Positions 13,946-36,000 of a DNA stretch of 50,366 nucleotides are shown piece by piece. The DNA lies in contig JADHYV010000106.1 in assembly GCA_027604705.1 (NCBI GenBank), positions 1 through 50,366 of the forward strand. The letters are read 5' to 3'. Each line of letters opens with the position of its first letter. Positions within the stretch are counted from its first letter, which is position 1. The stretch comes from Allomyces arbusculus (lineage: Eukaryota; Blastocladiomycota; Blastocladiomycetes; Blastocladiales; Blastocladiaceae). The notes beneath the pieces were generated by a model. The model had not been told where the DNA came from, did no database searches, and worked only from the letters and a program-made list of their open reading frames with translations. The translations under genes were made by a program, and so were the position numbers.

Positions 13946-14575
13946 TCACGACCGTGTTCCATCACAATGTCTCCAAGCATGTGTCCCTGCCGCTGCTCCG
14001 CCCCCCGATGCCCGGCCATCAGCGCCATCGCATCCACGGACAGAGACGCCACGAGCTGCGCGGCGTCGGCGCCCTAATCCGCCAACCCCGGCGCTGACCG
14101 CATGCGCGACGCGCCTGAATCCACCACTCCTGTTACCGACCGCGTGCGCGACGCGTCCACAACCGCATTTCTCCCTCGGTGGCCGCCGCGCGATCCGGAC
14201 GTGCACAAGCGCACTTGACGCCAATCCCTTTGGCGAGCTGCTCATGCTGCGCAGTGGGCCGTTTCTCGTAACGCGCAACGATGCCGACGCCGTGCCGAGG
14301 GTGAACGTGAAGCGCGCGCTGGCGTGCCCCTGACCTGGTTCCGCGGCCCACGGACTTGACCGCGTTTCGTGTGCGCCGCGATGTGATGCGGCATGTGTGT
14401 GGCAAGTGCTCGACCGTGTGAGAATGAAAACGTGTGTGCAGCAACGCGTTGACGCGTTGCACGAGTGGGTGGTTCGGTTGCGCAGTCGTGAGGGGCGGTG
14501 GATGAAAGCGCGTGGAATCTGTAAATTGGATGATGACAAGCCCGGCCGGTGGATGTCGGCAGGTGGAGAGTGATG
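13946..14575 (+). pseudogene. Decayed copy D of the CxxC-W-CC family
   Basis: The frame ending at 14333 contains FGELLMLRSGPFLVTRNDADAV and then VNVKRALACP. This matches the FG-x-LL-x-P-SPFxVTG...VRxAL core of the intact family gene at 15102-16130. After a frame change, the text RHVCGKCSTV appears at about 14385-14415, matching the C-x2-C half of the module. The usual W and CC positions are not readable. The upstream part is Ala/Arg/Pro-rich and does not match the helical N-terminus of other copies. I see at least one frameshift and a stop. It lies on the plus strand, opposite to the intact copy. Confidence 0.5.
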
Positions 14576-14602
14576 TGCGCGGACGCGCGGCAGGGAGTGG
14601 GG

Positions 14603-14977
14603 TCACGACTTGTATATACGTTGGCGGGTCATGAATGTAAATAGGACCGAAGTCGTGGAATTGAAAGGATGGAACAACAACAACACAAGCTGCGGCCGGC
14701 CTGACCATTCATTCTCGATCATCGTCATGCCCGCCACGTTCTCGCTCGGGTCAACGACCACACCACCACCGCACGCGAAGTCGACCGGGATCCCACGCGT
14801 GACGAAGTGGAGGGCAACGAGCAGCCGCGATTGCTCAGTGAACGGCAAAAATAGCATTCGCACGGAATCGGGCTCGAGTCGTGCGGGCAGGGAGGAAGCG
14901 TGGAAACTGACGGGAGCAATTCTCGCTGTGCATCTGTTGCGGCACGCGGTGGAGAGCACGCCTAAACACAGGAGCAA
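14603..14977 (-). CDS. Hypothetical 124-codon open frame
   Basis: This minus-strand frame reads as a plausible globular sequence: alternating hydrophobic stretches (RMLFLPF, LLVALHFVTRG), a Gly/Val stretch VDFACGGGVVVDPSENV, and a C-terminal LVLLLFHPFN segment. I know no family it belongs to. The opposite strand is open over much of the same interval, so coding orientation is uncertain. It sits between copy D and the intact family member A and may be an unrelated subtelomeric gene fragment. Confidence 0.25.
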   Translation of the reverse strand: MLLCLGVLSTACRNRCTARIAPVSFHASSLPARLEPDSVRMLFLPFTEQSRLLVALHFVTRGIPVDFACGGGVVVDPSENVAGMTMIENEWSGRPQLVLLLFHPFNSTTSVLFTFMTRQRIYKS

Positions 14978-15101
14978 TGCGATAGGAAAGGGCCAGGGCC
15001 GCTTGTTGGCCGGGAAGCAACAGGAATGTATCTACCGCACGCGACGAAACCTGCATTCCGGCACGACTCTCCACACGACCGACCGCGCCAATTTTGCAAT
15101 G

Positions 15102-16130
15102 TCACCCTGGTTCTGCGCCGCGGTAACGTAACCCCACCACAAAAATGAGGTCCGTCCTGACCGCGCGCGGTGCAAGTGTTGATCGCCACGAGTCACAGCA
15201 CTGGCGCGCAGCCTTCCACATCCCGCCACACGTGCACCGAATGCCCTTAAACCGGCGCCGGCGCACGCCAATCGACTCCATGAGCGCCGTGTCCCAGGGC
15301 GTGTTGGCGCCACCAATCGAGAGACCGAGTGCCGACCGCACGTCGACCGACCGCACGCCGTCGTCGGCGTCACCCGTGTAGAGGAACGGCGACGTGGGTG
15401 AGAGCAGGAGCGCCCCGAGCCGGTCGCGCGCAAGCGCCGCGAGAATGGTGACGGGAAGTCGCGCAAGTGTGTCGGGTGGAGGTGGCAGCAGCGGCGGCGC
15501 TCGTCGAATCGCAGTTGCACTTGCATCGCGCCGGGGACGGGCAGCAGACGCGCGACTCGGCGAGTCTGCGACGTCGTCGTCGGAACCTGCGTCGTCACAA
15601 TCGTCATGACCGCTGCCGCTTATCGCGCCGTTGCTTCTGCCACGGTTTCGACTTATTGCGCCATCGTGATCGCCGCGGCGAGACGGTCGTGTGGGGGAAC
15701 GCGACGTTACGGCGCTGCTTTCCCTGCGATGCAGACGAGCGCCGTCGCCAGCCAGATTGCGCGCGATGATGGTCGCGACCGTCGTGTCGTCGCAGTCGGG
15801 AAATACGAGCGTAGACTCGGTGCAGAGTGCGGTCGTGTCCGCCTCGAGTGCCAGGAGCGCAGAGACGACTTCGGGGCTGGCCACCGTGGCGGACATGAGG
15901 GCGTCGGCGGCGCGTCGCATCTCGGCCGGACGCGCACTGGGTACGCGCTGCGGCCATATGGGCTCGTGGTCGACGTCGACAAGGTCGCACGCCGGCCGCT
16001 GCGAGAGGGGGAACGAGTGCGTGACCGAGAACTCGGCGTGGTCGCAGGAAGCAACAGAGGCAGGAGGGGTGGACCAGCGGCGGGCTCTTGGGCCGAGCAT
16101 GGCGGCACTGGTAGCTGGTATTGTTGTCAT
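15102..16130 (-). CDS. Intact member (copy A) of an unrecognised CxxC-W-CC protein family
   Basis: This is one uninterrupted frame of 342 residues; an internal Met at about residue 11 (MLGPRARRW) is an alternative start. Residues ~45-130 form a predicted helical part (PAEMRRAADALM...SALLALEADTTAL...TIIARNLAGDG). Residues ~130-230 are an Arg/Ser/Asp-rich low-complexity linker. Residues ~230-340 form the conserved module: LARDRLGALLLSPTSPFLYTG, then VDVRSALGL, WDTALMESIGV, and a cysteine cluster reading CTCGGMWKAARQCC, ending in FVVGLRYRG. The spacing C-x3-W-x5-CC equals that in every readable relative in this window, although the first cysteine pair is CxC rather than CxxC. The cluster could bind zinc, but no function is known to me. 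Copy E starts ~190 bases away, head-to-head. Confidence 0.6.
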   Translation of the reverse strand: MTTIPATSAAMLGPRARRWSTPPASVASCDHAEFSVTHSFPLSQRPACDLVDVDHEPIWPQRVPSARPAEMRRAADALMSATVASPEVVSALLALEADTTALCTESTLVFPDCDDTTVATIIARNLAGDGARLHRRESSAVTSRSPTRPSRRGDHDGAISRNRGRSNGAISGSGHDDCDDAGSDDDVADSPSRASAARPRRDASATAIRRAPPLLPPPPDTLARLPVTILAALARDRLGALLLSPTSPFLYTGDADDGVRSVDVRSALGLSIGGANTPWDTALMESIGVRRRRFKGIRCTCGGMWKAARQCCDSWRSTLAPRAVRTDLIFVVGLRYRGAEPG

Positions 16131-16317: not shown

Positions 16318-16794
16318 GTATGCGAGCGCCTCGGTCCCGGCCAATTCTGGCACCGAAGCGTCGGCTGCACCGCCGGCAGCACGCACGCGCGATGCGCCCG
16401 TCTCGCCCTCGCTCCCATTATGGCCGCCGCGCGACCCGGCCGTCCACGCGCGGCTCGCGTCCGATACCGCGCCAACCGACTGTTCATGCCCCCCGCCGCG
16501 GCGCCATTTATCGTGATGGGTGTCGCAACCGACGCAGTGCTGATGCTCGACATGAAGCGCGCGCTCAAACTGGTACGGACCAGTCACGTCCCGTGGCCCG
16601 AGACCGCTCTGGCCGTGGTTGGCGTGCGTCGCAACGAGACGCGGCACGTGTGCCGGCAGTGCAAGAGCATGTGGCCGACGAGCCGACTGTGTTGCTCGGT
16701 GTTGACGGACGCGCTCGTGTGTGGTCTTGTTGGGGCGGCGCAAGGATGGAGACGAGTGAGGGTGAGGTCCGCGTGGTGGTTGTGGATTCCGTGA
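16318..16794 (+). pseudogene. Decayed copy E of the CxxC-W-CC family
   Basis: A plus-strand frame beginning at 16318 reads LPLWPPRDPAVHARLAS, matching WPPRDAALRKRLA in the second module of the 34-36 kb gene. After a frame change, it continues in the frame ending at 16794 with PFIVMGVATDAV, LDMKRALKL and WPETALAVVGV. It then gives VCRQCKSMWPTSRLCC, which fits C-x2-C-x3-W-x5-CC exactly. A single frame change separates the two halves, so this copy is young or damaged by one indel (or one base error). The helical N-terminal region is absent. It is head-to-head with copy A. Confidence 0.6.
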
Positions 16795-17084: not shown

Positions 17085-17500
17085 TCAACGATCCACGCGT
17101 GCATGGCTGCCACGCGTCACAGAACTTGCGCACGAAGTCCTCCATAAGCACCCAAAGGCGCGACATTTGGCTTTCCTGCACCAGTGCACGCTAATCGACA
17201 CGAGCGGCTTGGTTTCCCACGGCGTTTCAAACCAGAGGTCCACCCCAAGCTCCACACGCACGTCGACGATGTGCAAGCGTCGTGCGGGTTGCCCGTGTTT
17301 TAGATAGGGGAGAGCGCGAGAGGAGGAGTATGCCGAACCGGTTGTGCGCGAGCACGGCGATAACGTGAGACGGGAGGTGCACCAGTTCATTGGGTCGGGG
17401 TGGGGAGAGACCGGTGAAATGTGACAGTTTTGATGTTTGCTCGCCCATGCGTGAGCATACCACATTGAACCAGAACACCCACCGCGCAGTTGGGCAAACA
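17085..17500 (-). pseudogene. Decayed copy F of the CxxC-W-CC family
   Basis: On the minus strand, LPSHVIAVLAHNRFGILLLSRSPL (in two pieces here: LPSHVIAVLAHNRFG and ILLLSRSPL) matches LPVTILAALARDRLG / ALLLSPTSPF of copy A. After a frame change, the sequence HIVDVRVELGVDLWFETPWE corresponds to the VDVRSALGL...TPWD part. It ends in a degraded, cysteine-containing tail around CLWRTSC. The strict CxxC-W-CC spacing is no longer readable. At least one frameshift is needed. It is tandem with copy B on the same strand. Confidence 0.5.
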
Positions 17501-17568
17501 ACGTGAGTGTAAATATCGATAGGTGCCCACAGCGGAAATGCACAACGGCTTCGCTCTCACACCATTTT

Positions 17569-18590
17569 CTACACAAAAAACGCGGCTCGCGTTGCAGCTT
17601 CACGCTGACGTGCTGCGGTACCACAATCCCAAGACAAACTTGAGTTCGGTCTTCCCCCAAATCCGACTGCCACGCGTTGCATCATTGGCGCGTGGCTTCT
17701 ACATACTCCCCACACGCATACCGGACCCCTGGAACCGGTGCAAGCGCACACCAAGCGACTCGAGCAGTGCCGTGTCCCCAGGCGTGCATCCCCCTGGGGA
17801 AAGCAGGGCTTCAGGCGCACGTCGGCCGTACGAACGCCGTCATTGGCGTCGCCCGTGCAATGGAACGGCGACGTGGGCGACATGAGCAGCGTGCCGAGCC
17901 GATCGCGCGCGAGCGCCGTGGTTGGGAGCCGCAAGTGAGTTAGGCAAAGGCGGCGGCTCGCGGTGCACGCGGGCCATTGCGCTGTTCGGCAGAAGTGCGG
18001 TGCTGGTGGACGCGTGGCTTGGTGACGCGCCGCCGTGAACATGGTTCGGGAAGTCGTCAGAATTGGCGTCGCCAGTCTCATTGCCGTGCTCACTGTCGTT
18101 CATCGCACTGCTGGCGCCGCAGTCATTGCGGCGGCGAGACGAACGAGCCCGGAAACGTGTCTGGGATCAATGGTCACGCACCTCCTGGGTTTGGTCCGTT
18201 GTGTCAACGCCATGGCAATAATGGTCCCCGCCAGCCTGATCAATTACGAGAGCCTTTACGACAGTCGTGTCATCGTGGTTGAGGAATACGGGCGCGTACT
18301 TGTTGCGCAGCGCGTGCACGTCGGCCTCGAGCAAGAAGACACGTACATGAGCTCGCGCGTTCGGGCTGGTCACGACAACGGTTGTCAACGCGTCAGCGGC
18401 ACTGCACATCTCGGTCGCGCTTGTGGGTGCGGTGTGAATTCATTTGGTCGCTTGGTCGACGACAAGGTCGCGCGCCGGCTGTGGGAGCGACTTGGATTGC
18501 GTGACGAGCGACTTGACGCGGTCGGCCGTGGCGGCGGCCGTGGCGGTGGACGCGCGCGAGCGGGGATTTGGTGCTGAGCATGGCTGCGTC
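17569..18590 (-). pseudogene. Decayed copy B of the CxxC-W-CC family
   Basis: This copy spans the full architecture of copy A on the minus strand but is spread over several frames. Near 18590-18580 the text AAMLSTKSPLARV matches AAMLGPRARRW. At 18409-18167, CSAADALTTVVVTSPNA...LLEADVHALRNKY...DDTTVVKALVIDQAG matches the helical part of A. Near 17870-17800, LARDRLGTLLMSPTSPFHCTG and GDANDGVRTADVR match the module, and WDTALLESLGVRLHRFQG follows. The cysteine cluster has been replaced and a stop interrupts it. It is therefore a clear pseudogene. It is head-to-head with copy C across 18591-18950. Confidence 0.6.
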
Positions 18591-18952: not shown

Positions 18953-19717
18953 ATGATGTGCTCTTCGCCGCCGCCCCGTCGCCGCCCGGCGCCGCACGCC
19001 AATGATACCGCCGCGGCCGAAAACGACACGGCCGGCTGCATGCACTCTCTGCTCGCGCAATCGCAGGTCATTGCACTGCATGTGCTCAATATGGTCGTCG
19101 ACCAGGCCGCGCAATTACTGCACGACGTGACTGCGCAAAAGGCCGAGATGTGCCGCACTGCGCGGGCGCTCATGTCCTCTCACAGCGGCGACACGACTAA
19201 CACCGCTGACGTGCGCGAGATGCTGTACGTGCTCGTCGCGCTCGAGGCTGACGTGCGCGCGTTGCACGACAAGTGTACGGTGTCCTGCCTGACCGCATGA
19301 TCGTCAAGGCCGGGCACGAGCCAGGCGCCATGCGCGGCGCACTAGTTGACGGCGACGGCGAGCCGCGATTCCCACTCGAGCCACGTCCGATCCGACAAAC
19401 CGTGCGAGTCCCGGCGCGCGGTACTCGTGACCGTGCGTGCACGTTGGCGCGCCGTCGTGCTAGCGGCCCTGTTCGCGCCCCCGTCGACGCATCATCAAAA
19501 TGCGCTTATGGTTTCGAAGGCAGCGGCAAGAACGGTGATAGTACCGAGCAATTTACGTACACGGGCGATGCGCTCGGAGTCCTGCTCAAAAGCAAGTCGC
19601 TATCTCTGGGACTATACGCTGCTTGAGTTGGTCAATGTGGTTTGTCGCGACGCCCTGGTTGGGTGCCGATCATGCGGCGCCAACTGGCGGGCCGATCACG
19701 CGTGCTGCGCGGCGTAG
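18953..19717 (+). pseudogene. Decayed copy C of the CxxC-W-CC family
   Basis: The first frame (18953-19300) encodes a helical region: VLNMVVDQAAQLLHDVTAQKAEM, then CRTARALMSS and VALEADVRALHDKC. These align with PAEMRRAADALM and ALEADTTALC of copy A. Further on, QFTYTGDALGV matches SPFLYTGDADDGV. In another frame, LWDYTLLELVNVV is followed by VGCRSCGANWRADHACCAA, which keeps the exact C-x2-C-x3-W-x5-CC spacing. The linker is largely missing or scrambled. At least two frame changes interrupt it. It ends with a stop two residues after CC, lacking the usual VVGLARR-like tail. Confidence 0.55.
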
Positions 19718-20340
19718 GTACCTGTGCATGGCGCGGGGCCGCGCAGGAACAAGTATGCCTTAAGGATTTCTCGTGCGGCTAATCAGCAGGCTGGGGAAGA
19801 CCGTGATGAGATGGTTGAGTGGGGATGCGTTACTGACTGCTCATCGGTCTAGGGAGATTTGCCATGAAGGTGCATGAAATCACAGCATGGGCCTGAGATG
19901 CGCTGGTTGCTAAGCGTGCAAGCGATACTAGAAGATGTGTGATGTCGACCAAAATACAGCAAGCTCTTTTCATACCTATGTTGCAGTTTCTAGCTTGGCA
20001 TGAGCTGACTGCGACTGCCGTATCCCCATCAATCGCAGTATTGCCATCTATTTCTCGAGTGAGCGCTTCTCCTTATCGAATTCGTCTCAAGTGCCATGAA
20101 ACCCGCACAAAAAGGCCCCCATCGGCTTCACCACCCATTACACAACACAAGCAGCTCCAGCTGCCAATCCTTCTGGTTTTACAACTCGTCGCAGAGAAAG
20201 GCGATGCTGACCACTGCACCTAAAAGAACAATACATTGCCAGAACGCTATCGCGGCGAGTAGCAAGTCCTTCAGGTCACACCCAACCAAGCGCATGCAAG
20301 AACTGACGCGCCGTACAGTGAGAAATGCGGCTGTGGTCAT
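19718..20340. other. Intergenic stretch without recognisable features
   Basis: About 600 bases with GC content lower than the neighbouring genes. Only short open frames occur and none has a recognisable motif. It marks a transition from the family cluster into repeat-derived DNA. Confidence 0.5.
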
Positions 20341-20344
20341 GCCA

Positions 20345-20463
20345 TGCCGGCCCGCACAGGGGCCCATTAGCAGTCAAGGTCGCCACCACCGTCTCCCCAG
20401 CCGGAGGCGCCACTGCCGGCCTGTGCAGGGGCCCATTGGCAGTCAAGGTCGCCATCTCCCCAG
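20345..20463. repeat. Imperfect tandem duplication, unit about 69 bases
   Basis: Two copies of a segment containing AGGGGCCCATT[A/G]GCAGTC followed by AAGGTCGCCA lie about 69 bases apart (around 20354-20385 and 20425-20455). Each is followed by a CTCCCCAGC stretch. This is a small local duplication in non-coding or decayed DNA. Confidence 0.6.
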
Positions 20464-21865
20464 CTCGAGACATGGTGGTGGACGTCGAAACGTCGAACAT
20501 GGGAAGGAAAACTCAGAATTCAGCCACTTGGCAAATGATTTGACCATGACTGTACCACGTTTCTGCACATTCAACCACTCCTTGAGCTCCTTGTGGTGAT
20601 TGTCAAAAAACTGGGCGTGAATTGCATGGTCTCCACCACGAGCTTCTGGGACCATCGCACCGGTGTGGAGAAGAGAGTCAAATTGGCGCATGATTTCACG
20701 GTGGCGGACTTGTTGAGCAGCGTCTGTGCAGCAAACCGTCATGCATTCTTTCGGCCCCACGCCCAGTCCTGGCAGAGCGTAGCATACAAGAGGACAGCAT
20801 TGAGCATGCAAATGTCCTTGGCATGGAGGTTGGTCAACGTCTTCTTTGTCGATGGAAGCAGCTCGACAATCTTGCCATGGACGAGATCAAGGTCATCCTT
20901 CTCCCTGCCTGTCAATGCCCCAGATTTTTGGATCCGACCAGTCCCACTGCACCCCTGGCATGGCTGGGAAAAACGACCCCAACCCGGTGCAGAAGAAACA
21001 AGATCTGGCCCCTTGAACACCACAGGAGAGACAGGATCTGGAACAGGCAGCTCCTGAAGAGCTGGAGATGGAGCAGATTGAATCGAAATGGAGCGCCTTT
21101 TGCTCTGCTGATGCAAACATGGGTCGAAGTCATCTGCAGGAGCAGGTCGTTTGCGGACAGAACCGCCAAATGGAGTGACAAATGGGTCAAACACAGCCTT
21201 GATCGCAGCTGAAAGCACACCAGCAAAGTCCGAGATGACTTGCTGCGTTTAGGAAAGGGCGGACAGAGCCGCATGAGCCTGCTCGGGCACAGGATCGCCT
21301 GTGGGAAGGTGATGCACAAGCGCCAGAAGACGAGCCACCACGGAATCACTTGAATTGGCAAAATTGACAGCGAGTATGAAAACGAGCGCACTGAATCAAC
21401 CGATATCGCAGAAAAATGACGACACAGCAGGAGAAGCCAAGCCCGAAGTTGAGCCAATGGACCTGCATCATGAGAAACTGGAATTGGTGCCAAATGATCC
21501 ACCATTTCAGTTGGCCCTGAAGCTTGGGTGGGAACCGCATGAGCATGGTCAGAGCATGATCCAGGCTGCAGCAAGGGTGGAGAAGACCCTGTTTCTGTGG
21601 ACAAAATTAGCTGCGCAGGACTTGGGTCACCAGATTCATGAGTCGTGGAGTTGGAAATGACCACAGAGGGCGATTCCCAAGTGCCCATTCCACTGCGATT
21701 CTGGATTTTCACCCGGTTCTGGACAGCCTGCTTCTTCTTGCTGGCGCGACCCATTTCGTAGAAATTGCAACGACTTGCTGCGATTTGGGGACGGTATCTC
21801 GCACAAAACAGTGATGTCGGCTTCAAAGTGGAAATACAGTGACCCATCTCTGCATCCAACCCCAT
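20443..21865 (-). mobile_element. Decayed frame resembling the N-terminus of a fungal DDE transposase
   Basis: Minus-strand frames read MGRASKKKQAVQNRVKIQNR near 21770, a basic start like those of a fungal DDE transposase group. A Ser/Pro-rich stretch follows. Further on come KTLTNLHAKDICMLNAVLLYAT, then RHREIMRQFDSLLHTGAMVPEA and HHKELKEWLNVQKRGTV with VKSFAKWLNSEF. The last parts resemble the helical region of that group that precedes the catalytic domain (a conserved Trp/Arg-rich helix pair and an IGKYVKAxDIVxYL-like segment). The catalytic domain itself is not visible and frames change at least twice. I base this on remembered pattern similarity only. It could also be a decayed host gene. 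Confidence 0.3.
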
Positions 21866-22220
21866 CGCAACCTCCCCGCCCGGGCCACAATCCGAACCTT
21901 AATCGAAAATCGAACCGATAAGTTTTGTGGAGACCCCTTCATATTCTTTTGCCGAAGTTAGAGCCCCGGGGGTTGGGCTTTGAAAAAGAAATAGGCCGGC
22001 GGAGTTTGTGTGGGAAACGATCGCCGTCACCTGATGTCGGCCTCTGCCTGGCCGAACTGCGACACACGGTTTGATCTGCATGCACCATAGAACATTTGCT
22101 TCAATCACTCTTCACCTGGCTCTCTCTCTCTCTCTTTCAATCACTTACCATCCCTTCTGCTTCCTTTGCAACAACTGAGCACCAAGACACGCACTCGAGC
22201 GCATCGCCCTCCTCATCACC

Positions 22221-23867
22221 ATGTCCACCATGACGACCAGGAAAGTGGCCGCACCTACGACCGCCAAACCCATCCACGACTACACGCCGTACCTGGCCGC
22301 CTATTCTCGCGCGCGCGAGGAATCTGCCATCTCGGCCCTCTCGCCCGTCGCCGAGCTACGCGGCATGATCTCATTTGCCGGCGGCGCGCCCAACCCGGCC
22401 ACATTCGAGATCACCAATCTTGATCTGACGTTCAAGAACGGCACCACGGCCAAGCTAGGCAAAAAAAACGACACAGACGGCACTGCAGTACGGGGCCACG
22501 CCCGGGATGCCCGACTTGCTCGCATTTTTCGAGCAGCTGCAGCTGCGCGTGCACGGCGCGCCCAAGTACGCAAATCCGCACCTCAAGCGACGCATTCTGA
22601 TCGAGAACGGGTCACAGGACCTGCTGTCCAAAGCCATGGCCGCACTCGTCAAGCCGGGCGACAGTGTGCTCGTCGAGGCGCGGTGTTACCCGGGCATGCT
22701 TTCGATTCTGGACCCGATGGTTAAGACAATGAACGTCAAGCTCGTGGCCGTCCCGGTCGACGAGGAGGGGATCAACCCGACGGCGCTCGCCGCGATCTTG
22801 AACGCGTGGCCCGCACGAATGCGGAAACCGCGCGTGCTCTACACTGTCCCGACGGGCCAGAACCCAACGGGCGCGACGGCGCCGTTGGCGCACCGCCGCG
22901 CCGTGTATGCGGTCGCGCAGCGGCACGACTTGCTCGTGCTTGAGGACGACCCGTACATGTACCTGCAGTACACGCTCTCGGACGACGCCTTTGCGGATCA
23001 ACAACAGCAGCAGAAGCAGCCGCACGTCGACGCGCCGTCGCAACCGGCCTCGCACGACGCTGACCTGGCCCTTGGCGCGCGGTTCGCAGCCGCGTTAATC
23101 CCGAGCTACATGTCGCTCGACACGGACGGCCGCGTCCTGCGGTTCGATTCGCTCTCGAAAGTCATCGGCGGCGGGATCCGGATCGGGTACTTCACGGGCC
23201 CGGCACCTATCTACGAGCGGCTCGAATTCGACGCGCAGGCGACCTGCTGCAGCCCACGTCCCTCGCGCAAGTTTTTGTCCTGGCCCTCGTCCGGGACGTC
23301 TGGCAGAATGCGCCGGACTTGTTCCTCGCACACACGGCACGACTCGCCGCGTTTTACCGGTCCCGCCGCGACGCGATGCTCCGGGCCATGTCGGCCGCGC
23401 GGCTCGTCGAGGACGGGCTTGTTGAGATCGCGAATGTGCCAACGGCCGGGATGGTTTTGTGGTTCAAGCTGACGACGGTCAAGGATACGTTGGCGCTCGC
23501 GCGCGGGCTGGCCATGGACCGCAAGGTGTTGCTGCTGCCAGGAGTTCATTGTATGCCAAAAGCGAAACCTGGGGAGCGAGATGCGTACGTGCGTGCGACG
23601 CATGCGTTAGCGACCGAGGAGATGATGGTCGAGGGGATGAAGAGGCTGCGCGAGTGCATTGATCTGGCGATGCGCAACGAGCGGTTGCAGAAGCGCCAGC
23701 AGGAGGAAGAGTATAGTGTGGGCGGCGTGTCGACGCTGGCCATGGTGGTCGCGCGCGGCGCGCAGTCGGCGGTGGAGAAGTTGATGGGAACGTTGTTGTG
23801 CGGATTTGCGGGTTCGAGGGATGCGGACGATGACGAGCTCGTGAAGCCCCTGCTTAAGAAGGCATGA
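22221..23867 (+). CDS. Class I/II aminotransferase, 2-aminoadipate/aromatic (AADAT/ARO8-like), with two frame breaks
   Basis: Start MSTMTTRKVAAPTTAKPIHDY. The family pattern is clear: ELRGMISFAGGAPNPATF, then YGATPGMPDLLAFFEQLQ, ILIENGSQDLLSKAM, VPTGQNPTGAT, EDDPYMYLQY, and the PLP-lysine segment DSLSKVIGGGIRIGYF (lysine codon near 23160). The C-terminal domain reads NVPTAGMVLWFKL and LLLPGVHC. Such enzymes transfer amino groups from aromatic amino acids, kynurenine or 2-aminoadipate to 2-oxoglutarate using PLP. The reading frame changes twice: near an A8 run at ~22461-22468, and around 23237-23245 within CCTGCTGCAG. Conserved residues continue on both sides, so either the assembly has two indels or the gene has recently died. 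A ~60-residue C-terminal extension with a basic and then acidic stretch is extra to the family. Confidence 0.75.
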
Positions 23868-25285
23868 TGAATCGCGCGATACCATATTTGAAAACGGTCA
23901 CGGTTTGAGTAGTGAAAGAAGGTTCAAGAAAGGAAGTCGAGTTGATGGAAGTCAGCGTGAACACTCGTCTAGTCCTTCTCGTCACATTTGACCTCTATCC
24001 AAGCAGCTTGTCGTTAGTACACTCCAGCCACCGTGCTTCGAAACAGCCACAAGCCGCCATCCACAGTCGGCGCACGCGGAAGAACGCAAGGGCGGACCGC
24101 GTACTCACGGACACGGCATGATGTGAGGATGGCCTCATCGCGCGCATCGCCTTCGGTGGTCAGTTTGAGCCGTCGTCGCCGTGTTTCGTCAATCCATTGC
24201 CTACAAATTCCATCGCCTTCAGAATCATCCTCAAAATCGTGCTCCTGATTGCGCCGTGCGGCACCCGTCGACCCCCCACATGCGCGCGTGCGCGCTTCAC
24301 ACCATCATCGTCATTCTGGGGCCGTGGCGGTGGGGGTGTGCTGGTGCGGCGGAATCGACTGCTGCAGCTGCGGGAATGCCGTGCGCGGGTGTCGGCAGCC
24401 GCACAGAGGCGCTGCGGTCCGTGAGCGCGCCGGGCAGGAAGCTCACGTTGGCCACCGCGATCACGCGTCATCGGGTCTGTGTGCCGTAGTCATCGTGATT
24501 CAAAGAACAGGTGGAACCGGACCATACGGTCGAGCACGACAGTGGCCGCCAAGGTGCCGGGCGTGAGCGAGTGAGCGGGGCACACGAAATCGCATGACGG
24601 CCGAGTTAAGGGCGTGGGTCCGGGGACGTGGCGGCGGCCGCGAGTCCGCGCGTGCACACCGTCGCCTGCGGTACCGCACGCGCTCGGTGGCGATGGGAAC
24701 CGCGGCAGTGACACGTCCTCGTGCACCACGTCCACTGCCACCATCACAGCGCGCGCAACGTGGCCAGCTCGCTCGGGCACTGCGTCATACTCGAGTGCAA
24801 CCGCGCGGTCGGACCGGCACTTACACCGACACACAGCGCCTAGTCTTCGACGCAACTGGGTGTAACGCTGCGGCCGCGTCGACGGCGAGCGCATCGGCGC
24901 GCTGGCCGGCGGTACGTGTCGTGGTCGGATGCACGCGAGCGAACGCGCGGTCGAGAACGACGTGGTGCGATCGGAGCATGAACGGCAGGCGTAATCGTTG
25001 ATGATCGGAGTCGATCCGCGGTGGCAGCATCGGCGTGCACCATGGTGCGGAAAGTAGGATGGTGCAGCAAGGGGGTGTAAGGTCTGAGTTGGCGACTGCG
25101 CGCCAGTGACGTGGATGATGTTCTTTGCCTTGCCGATTCAAAGGAAAGGACTCGCCTCGCCTCCACCAACTGACGAACACACACAGACCTCGCACTGTCT
25201 TCAAGCTATCCACCCCTCATACTCCATCATCAGCACCTGGTCGTCCCGCCGCCACCTTGTACTGCCAAGAGTTGCGGTTGCTAAG
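23868..25285. other. Intergenic region with unassigned minus-strand frames
   Basis: No recognisable gene. The most protein-like frame is 24894-24490 on the minus strand (about 134 codons), containing GHVARAVMVAVDVVHEDV and later SCDFVCPAHSLTPGTLAATVVL. The DNA is CpG-rich like host genes, so a small uncharacterised gene is possible, but overlapping frames on both strands prevent a call. CpG content drops sharply near 25285, the left edge of the transposon island. Confidence 0.4.
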
Positions 25286-25713: not shown

Positions 25714-27010
25714 TTGCATGCAGTTGAGTTGCACAAAAGCATTGGCACTACAATATCGATTTCAAATGTCGTTGAGCACCACAACAAACACCCAGATCTG
25801 TCCTGGGATGCTCTTGCGCACAAGTTTGGGGCATTAATCTCTTGGCCAACACTGTCTGCATATGGTGCTGCAAAGGCAAGGCTGGGCTTGTTGTGTCTCA
25901 TGCCCTGATTGCCTGCCCACAGCAGGCCAAATGTGTCTGTGAACCCATGCTGGGCCTGTGCATTGAAAAAGTGCTTGTGCAATAGGCGCATGAGCTTATT
26001 GATTGGCGTCTTTGCCTGACAGGCGTGATCATCATCATCATCAAGGTGTGCAAGCTGGTGCATGCCCTTGGCTTGCCTGATGGGCAGTTCAAAGGCTCAG
26101 CTGGTTGGCTCAAAGGGTTCCTGAAACAGCATGGACTCAAACCATTTGTCATGCATGGCAAAGGTGGCAAGGTGACACAGCAGATGCTCAAATGCAGCTC
26201 ATGCCAATGCAAACCACCTAATTGTCTTGCTTGACTCAGAGCACGTTTTCAATGCAGACAAAGGGGTGCTGTATTACTGGACCCTTCCCATATGCACGTA
26301 TGCATTTGGGCCCCTCAACAGGGGGGAGATCTGCAAGGATTGCATCATGTTCCTTGTTGCCACAAATGTGACAGGCACATACAAGAGCCTAATGATCATC
26401 AGAAAGCCCAAGACACCCACTGCTGCACAAAGTCCTCCTGGCTGCATCTGATGGGTTGATCTGTGCCATTATGCTCTGTACTGGAGCAATCCTGCAATGG
26501 CATGGATGACCAGCCAATTCTTTGAGGATTGGTTAAAGTGGTTTGATTAGCACTTGATGCACCCAAGCCTGCTCCTGATTGACAATGCGTCCATTCACCA
26601 GCTGGATGAAGAAGCATATCATCACATGAGTTTACGATTTATATGCATCCTGCACCCAAATGTAAAGTTCCAGCACCCAAATGTGATGTTTCACGTCCAG
26701 CCTGCTGACTAAGGGACATAAGCTCCCTCAAGGCAATGCATTGTTCCTTGCTTTTGGAGGACTTTTTGCAGATCATTGAGCAGCCACATCAAGCCAACAC
26801 TGAGTATGTGAAGCATGTCAACCCATTCCTGGCTGAGAAGTTTTTGCTCCTTGATGTCATGGACCTCATGCTCATTGCACTGGACCACCTTTTGCCCATA
26901 TTGATTTGGAACTGTTGGCGCAAGGCTAAGTTCCTGGGAAGTGCATTTATGCCAACTGAACTGCAATGCACTTCAGGGCCAAAATTTGGCCACTTTGAAT
27001 GAAACCATTT
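25714..27010 (+). mobile_element. Decayed pogo/Tigger-type transposase gene 1
   Basis: In order along the plus strand I read the following. A first DNA-binding helix-turn-helix (SNVVEHHNKHPDLSWDALAHK, split as SNVVEHHNKHPDLS and WDALAHK) resembles the CENP-B N-terminal domain. A second follows, GSAGWLKGFLKQHGLK, typical of the Tc5/CENP-B HTH. Then come DDE catalytic-domain landmarks: VFNADKGVLYY with the first Asp, LLLIDNASIHQL with the second, and HVQPAD with the third. A tail WNCWRKAKF matches the family ending NCWxKAGF. Several stops and frame changes interrupt the frame, so it is inactive. The three acidic positions are still readable. It belongs to the Tc1/mariner superfamily and was mobilised by cut-and-paste at TA sites. 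Confidence 0.75.
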
Positions 27011-28460
27011 TGTTGGCCATATCAGTGATTGAGCAGTGCAGTGATCCTGCCATTGCCAAATTTGGCCAACTGGTTGGGTCCCTGCACCACTTCCTGGGCC
27101 ACTGTGGCCAACCTGACATCTTGCTTGATGAAGTCAAGGAAATCGCCCAGCTGTGGCTCAAGCAAGGACACACTGATTCCACCTCATCTGCTTATGAAAA
27201 TGATCCTGACCATATTTTAGCCCACCTCACTGGGGAGGAGTGGGGCTGTGTCTCCAATGCAGTGATTTGTAGTGACCAAGTGCAGCTTGCTGGCTCAACC
27301 CAGACAACAGTGGAGGGCCGTTCACCACCCAGTTTAGAGGTGGATGATGATGAGCACTTTGAAGTGCTGCACAAGGTTGTGGAGGGGGCCAAGGAGCATG
27401 GTCAACAGACTGTTGAGTTTATGGCAAAGAAGGAGATTGGTGCATGGAGTGCCTAACAACTCATGCCAATGTGACATTTATTGATTCACACTATTCAAAT
27501 CTACAAATGAGAGTAAACCCATGCAAGGATATGGTGCACAAGTTGGTGATGGTGAGCAGGTCAGGGGTGCATGTTGGCAACAGCAAGCAGTATGTGTGCA
27601 CCATGAGCAACAAGTGGGGTGTGCTGTGGGGGGCACACAGAAGTATTGGGTAGGTGGAATGGACAATATAGCAGAGGCGAATGGCCCAGCAAGAAAATAC
27701 AGGTTTTTGTGGATGCCTGTGTTGCTGCAAAGCTGGCAGTCACACTACAGCCTGTAGCCAATGGAGGCAGAATGAATTGCCATATTGCATGCCCAAGGAC
27801 AGCACATTGTTCCAAAGAAGCCTACCACACAGTTCTCCAGAAGAAGGTCTGCTGTGTGGTTGGTCTCACTCACTTAACACACAATCCTGTGCATTGAGGT
27901 CAAAGTAGCCTGGCCAAAAGGAAAAGAAGTGAGGCCCAAAATTGTACCTGTCACAAACAAGTGAGCTGTCTTTGTGTACAAAACCAGGGCAAATGGCACA
28001 TGTTGCATCCTTGAAATATGGGTCATATCACACATCCTTGATGGCAAGAGCTCTGAGTGACAGGCAACCAGAATTGTTGGTGGGCAGTTCATTTTCCTCA
28101 GTGAGCAAGCAGGGGGCCAAGGTGACACCAAGGCAGGCCCACTGAGCTTTTGAATTCCCATGATGCTTGCACTGCTGCTCTGCAACCAAGTCAAAATGAC
28201 AAAGGAAAAAAAAGGAAGAGCAAAGTGTGGGGCCCCTGAACACCCAAAAAAGTGACAAAATCCAAGCAAGTGAACAAGGTTTGTAGCAATGTCACCACTG
28301 TGTGGTGGATGGTGTGTGCACAGCGGTTTGCTGACTACTACAGTGGCTTGCAGGGTCAGAAAGAGGCCTGGGGTGGCTGGCAGAGGCATGGGTCAGACAG
28401 GTTGGCCAATTGGAGTTGGATTTGAACCAATGGCTGCCATTCCCACTGAGTGAGTCAGGG
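27011..28460. other. Unassigned CpG-poor stretch between the two transposases
   Basis: The plus-strand frame 26941-27456 stays open for about 170 codons after the transposase tail, with an acidic, Leu-rich sequence (LDEVKEIAQLWLKQGH and LEVDDDEHFEVLHKVVEGAKEH). It may be the C-terminal end of transposase 1. The remaining ~1 kb contains only short broken frames. I could not find terminal inverted repeats that delimit either large element. Confidence 0.4.
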
Positions 28461-28463
28461 CAG

Positions 28464-31116
28464 TCAGTCAGTGTCAGTGCAATTTTTGGTGCACAACCTA
28501 TCACTCATTAAGTCCAAAACTAAACTCTGGTCACCAAGAATGTCCTTGGTGGGAGGCCCTGTGACAGCATGGCCCCAGGTCATGCTTGTCATCTTGTCCA
28601 GTGCCATGCAGACATTCACCATTGTACCCACTGTTGTGTCTGCCATTGTGCCTGCCATTACACTTGGTGTCAATGCTACCATGCTGGTGCAGTCCTTCTT
28701 CCCCTTCAACACCTATCATTGCATCTGCATCCACACCTGTGTCTATCTCAGGGTACCCAACTGGCCAACCCACTTGCCCTACCTCCCCCAGCCTGGCCTG
28801 AAGTGCAGCAAGGTACTTCTCATTCCTGGGATCAAGCAGGGTGAGCACCTCAGGCCAGTCCTGGTTGCATCAGAGGAATGCCTCACTCACTGCTGCAGCC
28901 TTCAAGACCATGATGTTGAGGACCTTCTTGGGGCAGATGCTGGCTTGGAGCATCCCCACCTTGGTGCTTGCAATCCCAACCTTGCCAAACACATCCTTGA
29001 CCTTGGTCTCAATGTCCCTGTTTTTGCATAGGTCTCAGTAGGTTTTTGCAAGCATGTCCATGATGAGTACACACCTATTTGGCAGTGGAATTGTTTTAGC
29101 ACTTGCAGCCACATCCCTGTTGTCCTCCTTGACTGCTGCATCCTTGTTGGTAGCAGTGCCAGCACCACCTGGTACATTCTGCTGGCACGCCCTTTGCATG
29201 GCTGTGCTTTTGTGCCATGTGGTGATCAAGCTGACCACTGTTGCCATTGGGTACCTGCACCATAGCTCACTGAACTGGCTGCCCAAGGCCACAGCATGCT
29301 CAATGTCTCTGAGTATTTTCCATGGCATCTGATGACACCTCCAGATGCTGAGGATTGCCTGGTGTGCCACTTTGACACGATTGGTGTGTTGCTGTTCTTC
29401 TTGCTCCCATATGTTGTCAGCGTCAATGCAATGCTTACAGTATGTGTGCTATCTGAAAATCATCATGAGCAAGTACTCAGTGAACACAGACATGGCCTCC
29501 CATACCTTGAACTGATGGTTGAGGCTCATGTCCACAGGCTGGAGGATATCAGTACACCCTGCTGGGATGAAGCTGACATCCCACCTACATTTGTGTAGGA
29601 CATCTGTGGTCATGTCCATGGTATGGAACTTTGTGTGATTGATGATGATGAGCAGCAACTTGGGACTGACAAGGTTTGCAAACTCCAGCACCAATGTTGT
29701 GTGGATCTATTGTTGCATGACTAACCCCATCTTTTGAAGATTAGTAACCATTCAAGCATTATATTTCAAGGTGTATGTACCTGTCTTATTGTCCTATGGA
29801 TTTGTGGACTGGTACATGTCCACATCATGGTTGGACTGGTATGTGTGCCACTCATCCAGGGTCACATTTGCTGACATGGCCTCCAGAATATAGATGGGTA
29901 TGTTGTTTGCTGTGTGCACAGGCCCTTTGGTCAAGGGCCCATCCCAGGTAGAACCACAACTGGGTGGAGTAGGTGTGCAGTCTCATTGCAGAATGAGGCC
30001 AATGCAGCCATGATTTTGACTGTATGCTTATCAGCACCAGACTGACTTGTCCAATTAGGGATGACCACTGCCCCTCTTGGTGCATATATCACTGATCCAT
30101 ACTTGCTGAATACAAGGCCTGGTTCATCCATGGTCACAATCACCTTGTATGCCTTGTCCATGACCATGTCCAACAGCTCCTTGTAGAACTTGGCAATGTG
30201 TGGTGCCTTGCCCTTGACTGCATTGTGCCTTGTGGTCATGTGGTGCCAATGCATGATCTTGTTGTGGCAGCAAAACTTGTGCCACCATACTTTCAAGCCA
30301 CAAAAATGGGGCATGGCTGGGTTCCTTGCTTTGACATTGGACTTCATGGTGCACCATGGGAACTTTTGTGAGAGCTCAATCAATGAAATACATTTCAGTT
30401 TAAGTTTGAGTACAAGTACATGTACTTTCTTTGTTGTACGCCCTTTCTACACTTGTTCCCAAATCCACTCACACACCACCTCTTCAGCATTCCCCCACAC
30501 AGGGACAGGACCCTTGCCCACCAATCTGGCCTTGGGTCAGGTGCCTTTCCCCTTTGCCATCTTCTCAGCCAATCTGTCATTGGCAAGCCACTTCTCCACC
30601 ATGCTTGCTGAAACACCTGGCACATTTGTTGCCCCAAACACAGCCCAAGTCATGCCATTCCTAGGCACCTCAGGGCCAAGTTCCTTGAAGTAAAGCCACT
30701 TTTTGGCAAGGTCCAGCTTGAACACATTGTTGTGCTGCTGCTGCTCACTTGGTGGCAGCTTGAATCCAATCGTCTTGGTCAGCTTTTTGAGCTCATCCAG
30801 ACTTTCCTCTAGGCCTAGACAAACCCAGGTCTTGACTGGATCTCACATAGGTCCAGGTCAGGTCTGCTGACCCCGACCTGACCCACCTCCTGTTTCAGCC
30901 AGGTCAGGTCCAGGTCTAGCCAGTGCAGGCCAGGTCCAGGTCGGGGTCTGGGCCAGGTCTGGTCTGGGTTCAGGTCGGGTTCAGGTTGGATCTGGGGCAG
31001 GCCTGGTCAGCAGACCTGACCTGGACCTATGTGAGACCTGGTCGAGACCTGGGTTTGTCTAGGTCTACTTTCCTCATGTGGCACACCAAACCTGATGCCA
31101 GTGTTTCCTTTGACAT
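28464..31116 (-). mobile_element. Decayed pogo-type (DDE_1) transposase gene 2, interrupted by a MITE
   Basis: On the minus strand the gene begins MSKETLASGLVCHMRKV at 31116 and resumes beyond an inserted 258-bp element with ESLDELKKLTKTIGF. It continues through a helix-turn-helix segment (TNVPGVSASMVEKWLAND) and DDE landmarks: IVTMDEPGLVFSKYGS (first Asp), LLLIIINHTKFH (an Asn where the second Asp is expected), and FIPAGCTDILQPVDMSLN (third Asp in the LQPxD motif). A further ~300 codons down to ~28464 read DIETKVKDVFGKVG and LLDPRNEKYLAALQARLGEV, probably its C-terminal region. Stops and frame changes make it inactive. It differs from gene 1 in sequence, so the two are separate families within the pogo group. 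Confidence 0.7.
30810..31067. mobile_element. MITE with ~59-bp terminal inverted repeats inserted at TA in transposase 2
   Basis: The left arm begins (after TA at 30810-30811) GGCCTAGACAAACCCAGG and runs to about 30872. The right arm (about 31006-31065) is its reverse complement with only a few differences, and a second TA follows at 31066-31067. Between the arms are repeated CAGGTC-type units. The size, inverted repeats and TA duplication are those of a non-autonomous Tc1/mariner-type element. It lies inside the coding part of transposase 2, so it inserted later than that gene. Confidence 0.85.
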
Positions 31117-31119
31117 GAT

Positions 31120-32628
31120 GATGGGTTGTCAGGGATTCCTTTGCCAGAGGTGGCAGGAGGGGCAGGGTCATTTCCTTCTGATCAGAGTGCCACAGAGTGT
31201 ATTTTCAATTACATGCCTCCACCCAATGAGTCACTCTGACCCCTCAGTTCATCCCCTGGCCCATGTGAGTGCTGATGTGATCACTCAAGCCACTGCACGA
31301 CTCTGCTGCCTGGGCCTAGAATGCCAAGCCACCCTGTTTCTGTTTCTCCTTATCTCAGGGTCACCCATGGTATCAGCCCCAAGTTGGTAGCTCTGGTGTA
31401 CATGGTTCATCACCTCTGTGTGTCCATGTCAACATCATTGGGTCAACTGGGAAAAGCGGATCAAGGTCTAGCTGTCAGCTAGGGAATATGTAGTTTCTTG
31501 TCCCCTGTTGCAGTGTCAGAATATGATGCCCACTGGGAATGCTTGCAACATGGATTGTGAGAAGTCAGGACATTAACAAGAGCATGGAGAACAATCTGTT
31601 AGTGGTTAAGGGTGCTGTTTGTGCTTCAACCTGATTCTAAAAAACAAGAGAACTGTATGACAATATCTCCTGCATTACACAAAAGCAAAACTCAGTTACC
31701 TTTAAAATCTGGATTTATATGCAATTGTTGCTGTGACAAAGGAATAGAATACTTCATTGCCATAGCATGACAACAATTCATGATTGTTGAGGCAGCAAGC
31801 CTTGGGCAGTTCAATAATGTTCCATGTCTAGGCACAAGCAACTTGCTCCAGAATGCAGATGATTGCACAACGGTGCCCATATCTCATGTTGGCAATGTTG
31901 AAGCACAGAGCTGGGATGCAGGAGAGCATCTCCAGGTGTCCCCTAGTGGGCATGTGCTTACTATCAGCCTCAGGTAAGCAACAATGGGTCACACCCCAGC
32001 ACAAAAGACAAAGGCAAATGGCTTGTGTGTACAAGGAAGGTGCTCCTGCGCCTGGAGAATACAACCAGTTGCTATTGGTGTCTTCTTCAGCTAGTCAGCT
32101 CCTCATGAAAGCAACAGCATCTTCAGGTGAGCTGACCATCCTATCTGCAGAACAGCTGCAAAGTCAGCTAAATGCATGCCCTGTCAGACATAGCAAAAAT
32201 GGCATCTCTGCTCATTGTGTGACAATGTACCTCTGCCAGTGCATGTTTACAACATATGTATCATATTAGTGCACCAATATGCAATTCTTTGGGATGACCT
32301 GTTGATACATCAAGATGTAATTACTGCAGCTTGTATGCTTATGTTCTGGCCCAGCCATTTATCTCAGACGCTCTCATTACTGAGCACAATGAATGACTTT
32401 TGAATTGCAAATCTGATGCATTACATCAACTATACACCAACTTGCTCATTGAGTGTCATGACCAGGAACAATTCCAAGTCCACTTGAGCTTTGCAGACAA
32501 CATACAAGGTCCAACATAACAGATTATTGGTATCAGGTCAGATTAATATGAATGATATGAATGTGCATGTTACAATACAAGCAAAGAATTGCAGCTCAAT
32601 GCATCACCAAGAGGAATGACGTGGTTGA
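31120..32628. other. Unassigned CpG-poor repeat-derived stretch
   Basis: Only short open frames occur on either strand, none with a recognised motif. Base usage is that of the surrounding island. It probably consists of decayed, unidentified elements. Confidence 0.4.
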
Positions 32629-33138
32629 TACAGTGGTCTCTGGATAGAGCCCACCTGGATTCACTCACAGCCCAGGTACAGTGATTTGATGGTGGTTTAC
32701 AATGTGGAGTGCTGTGTCAGCACTCTCTGGATAGAGCCTGGTAACATGGGGCCCTCCTTCTCCTGGGTCTGGCAGCTTCTGCTTCTGCTCTGAAGTGTCC
32801 CCAGCTTCCTCAGGTTCCCTGGCGCTGCTCCCCATCCCCATCTGATCTGTCCACTACATCCATCTACAACACAGACCCATTCACAATGCTGGATGCATGC
32901 GCTGTGGGCAGTGCAGTTGGTGGTCAATGGGGAGAAGGAAGAGAAGGATGGGATAAAGGCTGTTGGTTGGCTGTGGAGCATGGCAAGAGGGAGTGGATTT
33001 AAGCTCAGAGTGCTGTTGGAGATGGGCAGGGACAAATCAATGATCATTGATTATCAGAGTCACATGTCTCTCTGTAGAGCCCACTTTTTGTAGAGCATAG
33101 GTGCTGAGGGACCTGGGCTCTATCCAGGGAGTACTGTA
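32629..33138. mobile_element. Short TA-flanked inverted-repeat element (pogo/Tigger-like MITE)
   Basis: The left end reads TA then CAGTGGTCTCTGGATAGAG. The right end is the reverse complement of CAGTACTCCCTGGATAGAG followed by TA. So the element is about 506 bp with ~24-bp inverted ends starting CAGT, typical of pogo/Tigger families, and has a TA target duplication. A further copy of the terminal motif (CACTCTCTGGATAGAGCC) lies inside at ~32720, and a related inverted copy (GTAGAGCCCAC) at ~33074. It may therefore be compound or carry duplicated subterminal repeats. The 32697-33047 minus-strand frame has no recognisable domain. Confidence 0.75.
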
Positions 33139-33460
33139 GACTCAATTGTGTCTGCACCTCTGCACATTGCTGATTCAATTGCACCTCACACTTGTCACAT
33201 TACAATGTCCATATGACACAAGAAGCTGCTCCTGATCAGGCTGGTGCAACAGTGATGCCCTGGGTGGTGTGTATTGGGACAGCACTGCAACCCTGCTCAT
33301 GTGAGCATGACCATGAAAAATTTTTCAAGTCCACTCAAAGTCTTTCAGATGACAAATGAGACCACATGCAAGATATCATTGGTGTCCAGGTCAGCTCAAA
33401 AAGCATCAATGAATACAACTTGGACATGTTTGGGCTGGTTTCACCGTCCACCCAGCAAGG

Positions 33461-34075
33461 ATCAACGTGTCGTCCATGGATGGCCCATGCACATCCCCCA
33501 TTCATTTCCTGCAGTGGAATGTTGGCATGATTTGGCACTTGAACGCCATGTTTGTACGCCACCCAGGCCATACGTTTCTGCCACGCGCACGCGTTTCATC
33601 TTCTTGACCCTAATTAAGCTTCGCAGCCTGTCCCACCTTTTGCGAGCATGGCGCATGGACTTGGGCAACGCTGGAAAATTCCGCCCGTCCTGCCTTCCCC
33701 CTTCCTAGGCTGCTTGGCAATGCAAACGCAGCCCGCTGCCCCTTCGTTCTCGTGGTGTTCGCGTACCCTGTTACACGTCGCCTGCACCGTCGCCAGAGGC
33801 CCGATCGCCACGTGCGCCTTGCTTTGCAACAAGCGAGAAGACGGCGAAACGATGCGCGATGCCGAGTTGGAGAGCCCGTGACTGACCGTTCGTTATTGCC
33901 CACGACGAATTTCTCCTGGAGGAGGTCGTCGCCCACTGCCGCTCTTTTCTGCTGATTCAACAACACAAGAACCAACCGCGCACGCTTCAAGATCAACGCT
34001 CCACGCCCAACGACTCGCCGATTCGACTGCTACACCGGACCCCCCCCCCCCCCCCATCCCACCACCACCACCACC
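33461..34075. promoter_or_regulatory. Upstream region of the two-module family gene
   Basis: CpG content returns to host level here, which marks the right edge of the transposon island. No gene is convincing; both strands are partly open. Immediately before the start codon lie a run of 16 C (34040-34055) and a CCA repeat leading into ACCATGG, a good initiation context. Confidence 0.45.
34040..34055. repeat. Poly-C run (16 C)
   Basis: Sixteen consecutive C residues sit 20 bases before the start codon of the two-module family gene, followed by a CCA repeat. Length may be unreliable in the assembly. Confidence 0.9.
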
Positions 34076-36000
34076 ATGGCCCTTGGCAGATTCTCTAACG
34101 CCACGATGCGCCCGTCGCCGCTCGTCAGGCGCGTAATGGAGATCCTCGCCCCCAAGTTCACGCCCACCCGGCTCTACGCGCGCGCCGACGAGCTCGCCAA
34201 TGCGCGCCCGCGCGCGCACAAGGCCGTCCTGGATGCGGCAAAGGCGGTCGATGCGGCGCGGAACAACTTGCTCGAAATGATGACCGACCTGCTAGCTGGC
34301 GCGCAATTCCTTGCCGCGGAACACGCAGTCGCCATCAACGTCGACCTCGTTGCCGCGATCACAGAGATCATGCGCGAGCAGGACGAACTGAACGCTAAGC
34401 ACACCGATATCATGCGCCCGTTTTACGTCAACGCCGCCGCGATTGTGCAAGCGGTCGAAATTTGGGACGACCTGGGCGAAGATAATGACGATGACGCGCG
34501 TGCCGCTGAGCGCGCACCGCGCGCCGAAGAGCGCGAGCGCCGTGACGGCGCATAGTTGTCGATTGGCGACGACGAGGTCGTGGTCGTGGAACCTGTTCGT
34601 CTCGATCGTACAGGCGCGCTGGGGGCGCCCGACCGTGTCAAAAATTGGGACCACCGTCGCGCGCCGGACGCGCCAGTCGTGCGCGCTGCTGTCGTGGACG
34701 ACAGCGATCAGTTGGTGGCAGCCGCTCGTCAACAGATCCGCGACCGTTTGCAGGTGATCACGTTGAGCGACAGCGACAGCACGAGGCCGAGGACGAGGGC
34801 AAGGGTATGGACGGCGACGTGGAAATGTACGATGTCGCGCATGTGCCCCTCGCCGCGGGCGCCGCCGATCATGCAGCGGCCGTGCGGCCGCAGGCTTCGT
34901 CGCCGGCCGCCGCTCGCGCGCACAAGTTGTCGCTGGCCGCCCGTCCACCGAAAATGATGCGCATGGCTGTGCGCGCGGCCCTCGCAAACGAGGAGTTCGG
35001 TTCCATCGCCTTTGGGCCCGGTTCCCCGTTCGTCGTGACGGGCAGCCGGTGCGGCTATGTTCTGTTACGCGACGTGCGCATGCGCTTCGGCCAATCTACG
35101 ATTGGCTCGATGCATTTGGACCGCGCGCTGCTGCAAACGGTCGGGGTCCACGTCCAGGACAATAAGGACGTCTGCCGTGCGTGCAAGAAGCTCTGGTCCC
35201 CGATCTTTCGGTGCTGCGACAAGTGGGCGCCGCCTGGCGGCGGTGGCGCAGGAGCCAAGAAGAGAACGCTGTTCGTTGGTGTCGCTCGGCGCGACGTGTT
35301 GGTTGATGACGACGACGAGGAGGAGGAGGAGGACGGCGATATCGGCGCGCCGCGCGTGGACGAGGCCATGGTCGCGCCGTCGCCGATTCCTGCGCGCACG
35401 TCGCGGTCGTGCCGATCGGTGTCGCGCAAAGAGAACCAGGAGCGGCGCGACTCGACGGACGATGAGTTACCGTCGCTGTCCGACGACGAGGACGGCGACA
35501 AGAACAGCGCGTTTGAAGGCGACGAGGATGAGGAAGAGCCGTTGGACAGCCGCACGTCATCCCGCGCGTCATGCCGCGCGTCGCGTGCGCTTCCACCACC
35601 GCCCGTGGAGCGCGACCGTGACATGTCCGACGTTAACCCGGCGTGGCCGCCGCGCGACGCAGCGTTGCGCAAGCGGCTCGCGCGCACGCCCCTCGGAAAG
35701 CTTCTCTTGAAGCCCGACTCGCCCTTCGTGGTGACTGGCAGCAACCGCGATGCTGTCGCCGCACCATTCGTGTGCAAGACTTTGAAGATCAATGACAAGG
35801 GCCGCGGGGTCAAGTGGTGGGACGAGGCAATCATGGCGGAAATCGGTCTCTCGAAGAAGTTGCAACAGAAGTGCTGCAAGAAGTGCGAGCAGCTGACGGC
35901 GAGCGAACGTCGATGCTGTGAGGTCTGGGACCAGACGAACGGAAAACCCGCAAAGAGCAGGCGCGTGGCCGTGGTCGGGCTGGCCCGGCGCACGACGTGA
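34076..36000 (+). CDS. Two-module member (copy G) of the CxxC-W-CC family
   Basis: The first frame (34076-34555) encodes a helical N-terminus (VLDAAKAVDAARNNLLEMM, then VDLVAAITEIMREQDELNAK) that aligns loosely with the N-terminus of copy A. The second frame (to 36000) carries two modules separated by a ~110-residue Asp/Glu/Ser-rich linker. Module 1 (~34946-35285) has FGPGSPFVVTG, VRMRFG, DRALLQTVGV and CRACKKLWSPIFRCC. Module 2 (~35641-35995) has WPPRDAALRKRLARTPLGK, KPDSPFVVTGSN, WWDEAIMAEIGL, CKKCEQLTASERRCC and a final VAVVGLARR. Module 2 lacks the W. A 56-nt GT-AG intron (34500-34555) would join the frames without a stop and give 622 residues, but the frame in 34556-34790 that reads most like protein differs. 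The model is therefore tentative. Function unknown; the acidic linker and Cys clusters suggest a nuclear or nucleic-acid role only as a guess. Confidence 0.6.

Follow-up and report, generated by a model that had tools for sequence, protein, structure and literature searches.

The 50,366-nucleotide stretch of DNA described here, from the blastocladiomycete water mold Allomyces arbusculus and referred to as the window, is contig C106 (JADHYV010000106.1) of a 25.9-Mb assembly of 197 contigs; other contigs of the same assembly are named in the same way (C6, C22, C65, C107, C178, C182, etc.). The window begins with a telomere-like CCTAA repeat (positions about 1–270) and carries several copies of a cysteine-containing protein module, which an earlier note, based on the sequence alone, had placed at a minimum of seven loci across the subtelomere. 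The subtelomeric location holds for this contig, but both ends of C178 and of C182 lack a telomere-like array, as does the end of each of C22 and C107; the beginning of C107 is masked. The main scan of the window was performed in six frames using hmmsearch and a profile of five module rows, none of which comes from the window. The profile recovers the window copies in eight stretches, seven of which have E < 0.002, whereas the eighth is marginal. The matches to this five-row profile run over 35650–35994, 34966–35295, 16498–16707, 14211–14321, and 19595–19711 on the forward strand and 15117–15446, 17809–17916, and 17100–17312 (the marginal one) on the reverse strand. Each of the seven loci is overlapped by a profile match, that at 17.1 kb only marginally. 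A second profile of nine rows includes rows from the window, and its best match in the reversed window has an E-value of 1.0.

The locus at 34–36 kb, which had been counted as one copy, contains two modules in tandem, the second of which had been overlooked. Module 1 of this gene, called copy G, is located at 34963–35304 on the forward strand (139.7 bits with the nine-row profile; 84.0 bits, E = 5e-25 with the five-row profile), and module 2 at 35650–35994 on the same strand (104.4 bits, E = 2e-31 with the five-row profile). Both belong to the predicted 397-residue protein P0003 (34807–36000, forward strand), inside the open frame 34546–36000. The N-terminal part of copy G (34094–34411, forward strand) is 46% identical to the N-terminus of a gene from C107 (E = 1e-18). 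Its reading frame differs from that of the modules, and there is an in-frame TAG at 34553–34555; copy G is either broken or spliced. The open 342-residue frame at 15102–16130 on the reverse strand has a single module at its C-terminus (15117–15452, reverse strand; 133.9 bits with nine rows; 76.2 bits, E = 1e-22 with five rows), the cluster of which is a CxC variant. The description of the copies as decayed does not apply to this frame, but several others are indeed partial or broken. The copy at 16483–16743 (forward strand; 96.7 bits with nine rows; 45.9 bits, E = 3e-13 with five rows) retains the cluster but lacks the first part of the module. A decayed paralogue of the 15.1-kb gene (17609–18568, reverse strand, E = 5e-17) is interrupted by three TGA and one TAG codons within the match and includes the N-terminal half of a module, without the cysteine cluster, at 17812–17919 (reverse strand, five-row E = 1e-7). 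Two additional remnants on the forward strand correspond to an N-terminal half without the cluster (14208–14321, five-row E = 2e-4) and a C-terminal half with it (19586–19711, five-row E = 1e-3). The stretch 17106–17318 on the reverse strand is a possible remnant, marginal and not secure (E = 0.007 with nine rows and 0.036 with five).

Judged by sequence comparison, the module is the same as that which ends D5-like superfamily 3 (SF3) primase-helicases encoded on C22 and C182. A profile built only from host copies and run with hmmsearch against 1705 open reading frames finds the tails of both the C22 (E = 2.5e-15) and C182 (E = 1e-6) helicases. The C22 match covers 103 columns and takes in the half of the module ahead of the cysteines, and the C182 match covers 57 columns, in which the cysteine part is dominant. 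The hhalign score of the C182 tail is 37.6, compared to at most 25.6 in 300 shuffles. The C22 copy closes an open frame that encodes a DUF5906/SF3 core, the Pfam match of which (E = 8e-5) is under the cut-off; the frame also matches a DNA primase from PHROG with an E-value of 1.8e-10. The C182 helicase is an 850-residue open frame cut by the contig edge, and its DUF5906 match is above the cut-off (E = 8e-7). The two helicases are 24% identical and align through the core and the tail (BLASTP E = 3e-21). In both of them the module lies C-terminal to the DUF5906/SF3 core, whereas the window copies lack this core. The helicase from C65 is akin to those from C22 and C182 in its N-terminal part and is without a recognizable module. 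Two protein searches, one using the helicase region of C182 and the other an alignment of four helicase rows, scored 2737 and 7992 candidates, respectively, and found no relatives at E ≤ 0.001. Scans of IMG/VR with the three helicases, their alignment, the C182 packaging ATPase, and the capsid candidate described below gave no confirmed relative, a weak negative because each scan used two to six short patterns only, and a tblastn search of phage records with the C22 helicase gave no match.

The cysteine cluster was compared in 14 modules, five from the window, seven from other contigs of the assembly, and two from Allomyces javanicus; the half modules without a cluster (14.2 kb, 17.8 kb, and C6) were excluded. 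The C-x2-C pair is present in 13 clusters, the exception being the CxC of the 15.1-kb copy, and the terminal CC in all 14. The number of residues between them is nine in eight clusters and ten in four, and the C22 and C182 helicases have seven and 11, respectively; tryptophan occurs in six clusters. The exact spacing claimed previously was not found, and the strict pattern C-x2-C-x3-W-x5-CC is ruled out as a definition of the module by the variable gap of 7–11 residues and the inconstant tryptophan.

Outside the window, there are at least two modules in one gene and one remnant on C107, two genes on C178, a half module on C6, and the helicase tails on C22 and C182. The nearest intact relative identified by a protein search is A. 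arbusculus GGF31_000659 from C107, which has 585 residues and two modules. Its A. javanicus homologue, GGF32_005019, is 83% identical over the searched part and 82% over all, and keeps every module cysteine. The query was rich in aspartate and the 7995 candidates with the most shared words were scored, and therefore more remote homologues could have been displaced from the scored set. The C178 genes are stop-to-stop frames of 436 and 391 residues. In the C107 and C178 proteins, an N-terminal part is followed by an acidic or low-complexity linker and then by one or two modules. The N-terminal part of the C107 protein matches copy G only and is predicted, with low confidence, to be helical, whereas that of the C178 proteins has matches on C85 and C98, two contigs without an observed module. 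No match between the two N-terminal groups emerged from these searches. The full-length model of P0001 is poor, with a predicted local distance difference test (pLDDT) score of 35.9, and the N-terminal helices alone reach 50–70.

The comparison of copy G with the C107 gene over 324 aligned codons shows constraint at the protein level. The divergence is 0.494 at third and 0.352 at second codon positions (z = 3.66, p = 2.5e-4), and the nonsynonymous and synonymous divergences are 0.46 and 1.01 according to NG86, and 0.50 and 0.93 according to LWL85. The earlier note had deduced selection on the parent genes from constant cysteine spacing, which alone is no proof, but this codon comparison supports the deduction. 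A SNARE gene at 36400–37268 of the window adjoins copy G, and the stretch matches C107:19305–20177 with 68.6% identity over 900 columns. Since the SNARE-gene stretch is common to both, copy G and the C107 gene may be parts of one duplicated segment. In a 12-row tree, the first modules of copy G and the C107 gene group together (95/93), as do the second modules of both (91/93). Because module 1 and module 2 group separately, the duplication that gave the gene two modules seems to predate the copying of the segment. The tree leaves out the half modules, the 19.6-kb and 17.1-kb copies, and the C107 remnant; its rows P0001–P0003 were taken from aligned rows with gap signs, and the C182 branch is long (3.25).

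The structure of module 2 was predicted using AlphaFold2, with a pLDDT of 75.8 and a predicted template modeling score of 0.70 for the best model. The model resembles a winged helix and lends weak support to such a fold. The cysteines are positioned on the wing hairpin, in a low-confidence stretch between strands 75–83 and 109–116. Metal binding fits the model, and the cluster would probably hold one zinc. The top viral structure match of the model is the D5 primase/helicase of an unrelated giant virus; however, no match is individually significant. A Foldseek search of the PDB with the model returned nothing meaningful, and a sequence search of the PDB with the module profile returned nothing under an E-value of 0.17. 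No Pfam family covers the module above the cut-off, and Rpr2, WD40, and DGOK, which have sub-threshold Pfam matches only, were rejected as its identity. DUF7636 overlaps the C22 tail with an E-value of 0.095 and 13.2 bits, compared to a cut-off of 27. Membership in Pox_D5 (PF03288) was also rejected, as the family is unlisted for module 2 and for the C182, C22, and C65 helicases up to an E-value of 10, and a Pox_D5 search of the assembly gave only C22:163592, under the cut-off. The previous statement that the module cannot be assigned to a known family is therefore correct with respect to Pfam, but it does not take into account the helicase tails on C22 and C182.

The 14.9-kb contig C182, which has a GC content of 41–45% over its first 10 kb, encodes the helicase, an A32-type packaging ATPase, an S74-type fiber, and a 441-residue capsid candidate. 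The capsid candidate has no family match and is labeled from gene order and its C65 homologue only. C182 also has an rve integrase match under the cut-off, a gene described as more typical of Polintons in the excerpted text of PMC7805220, and a DUF5901 match just under the cut-off. Terminal repeats were not found on C182, which is uninformative because the contig breaks off within the helicase frame. The sole tandem array of C182 (45 bp, 2.2 copies) lies inside an open frame, and there are no candidate origin repeats. The gene content suggests that C182 is a probably incomplete portion of a polinton-like virus that was either integrated or sequenced along with the host. A second polinton-like element is located at C65:65806–77076, with a capsid candidate 50% and an ATPase 54% identical to those of C182; the C65 helicase lies about 7 kb from these two genes. 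C22 contains matches to a D5-like helicase (52105–52455), sub-threshold Pox_D5 (163592–163759), and an A32-like ATPase (315954–316292), which may be insertions from giant viruses on the same contig as a module-tailed helicase.

The reading that we prefer, with a probability of roughly 60%, is that the module is a divergent D5-like SF3 primase-helicase tail that was captured from a polinton-like virus and multiplied in Allomyces genes. The tail domain would be a winged helix, the wing of which is a long hairpin with the C-x2-C...CC cluster and probably one zinc. Allomyces would have taken the tail from the viral helicase and joined it to unrelated N-terminal parts through an acidic or low-complexity linker. 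The tail would then have doubled within one gene (M1 and M2), after which the gene family would have spread and partly lost copies. The resulting proteins may bind DNA through one or two zinc-stabilized winged helices, and their N-terminal helices may enable dimerization. The module could bind double-stranded DNA in a sequence-specific manner. It is a matter of speculation that the host proteins damp viral replication by sitting on viral origins or by pairing with the tail of the viral helicase, although such antiviral use is attractive because related viral elements are present in the same assembly. A more elaborate scheme, which we consider doubtful, is that the proteins are decoys, in which tandem tails on a dimerizing stalk occupy the viral origin or block the viral helicase by pairing with it, and copies near the chromosome end turn over fast as the viruses change. 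Several points weigh against the preferred reading: the direction of transfer is argued from parsimony, module-tailed helicases are known only from this single assembly, and Pox_D5 matches neither the module nor any of the three helicases.

The module could have moved in the opposite direction, starting as a DNA-binding domain of the fungus and becoming a tail of polinton-like virus helicases. The absence of a recognizable module from the C65 helicase, which is related in the N-terminal part, would fit this, as would the excess of known host copies over helicase copies. Nevertheless, two helicases with 24% identity carry the module at the same place, which indicates that it is old in that line, and the top viral structure match, a D5 protein of an unrelated giant virus, would also fit an old tail. 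The host proteins, furthermore, attach the module to unrelated N-terminal parts, and we find transfer from host to virus quite unlikely.

It is also conceivable that the copies are passengers, bits of an amplified mobile element or a segmental duplication without a host function, given that five of the eight stretches in the window are incomplete, interrupted, or marginal and that the N-terminal part of copy G is out of frame with its modules. This is unlikely in view of the open frames on C107 (585 residues), on C178 (436 and 391 residues), and at 15.1 kb (342 residues), the 82–83% identity of the A. javanicus homologue with all module cysteines retained, the excess of third-position changes (p = 2.5e-4), and the SNARE-gene neighbor common to copy G and the C107 gene. 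Convergence, in which an unrelated zinc module of host regulators resembles the tails through its CxxC...CC hairpin, could account for the dominance of the cysteine part in the 57-column C182 match and for the lack of an individually significant fold match. It is made very improbable by the C22 match, which extends over the half before the cysteines, and by the composition-keeping shuffles of the C182 tail, all 300 of which stay below its score.

The C-terminal domain of some phage and mobile-element helicases recognizes origin DNA. The module shares with the tail of D5-like SF3 primase-helicases the position behind the SF3 core and, in two helicases, sequence homology, but differs in having C-x2-C...CC on a long hairpin and in occurring also without a helicase, single or in tandem, in host genes. 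As described in the excerpted text of PMC10516667, another SF3 helicase has a tail similar to the origin-binding domain of phage P4, a winged helix, whereas a different fold is ascribed to the tails of vaccinia D5 and NrS-1 polymerase; a work on P4 cited there concerns, by its title, regulation via homo- and heterodimerization of winged-helix proteins. The P4 alpha domain is likewise a helicase tail, and the module is likely a winged helix according to its model, but no sequence or fold match between them was found, and the likeness is drawn through that text (PMC10516667). Vaccinia D5 has a separate C-terminal domain with weak winged-helix likeness, and Pox_D5 is similarly the C-terminal domain of this helicase, according to the excerpted text of PMC9611036. 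Polinton-like viruses are reported from the fungi Spizellomyces punctatus and Allomyces macrogynus, and the excerpted text of PMC7805220 mentions no captured helicase tail in host genes; C182 and C65 likewise carry an ATPase, a helicase, and a common capsid-candidate gene. The module is unmentioned in the mainly open-access literature consulted on Allomyces viruses, subtelomeres, and genome, polinton-like viruses, and helicase tails, in which no search was aimed at the motif.

On the sequence evidence, the module is a real domain without a name that Pfam lacks, a variant of the SF3 primase-helicase tail surviving in a host gene family. The orphan cysteine motif thereby offers a case, open to testing, in which an early-diverging fungus has putatively taken over a viral replication domain; the assembly of this fungus also holds related viral elements. 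If the proteins do bind viral origins, a helicase tail would here serve an antiviral role, with a logic like that of other captured viral genes.

The window also contains stretches of lower GC content (0.46–0.55 per kb) at 20001–22000 and 25001–34000, which are possibly mobile elements; four open frames tested in them had no Pfam match at E = 0.01. The module copies are preceded by a choline-transporter-like gene (10954–12582), and a class I/II aminotransferase-like frame (22459–23472) is positioned among them.

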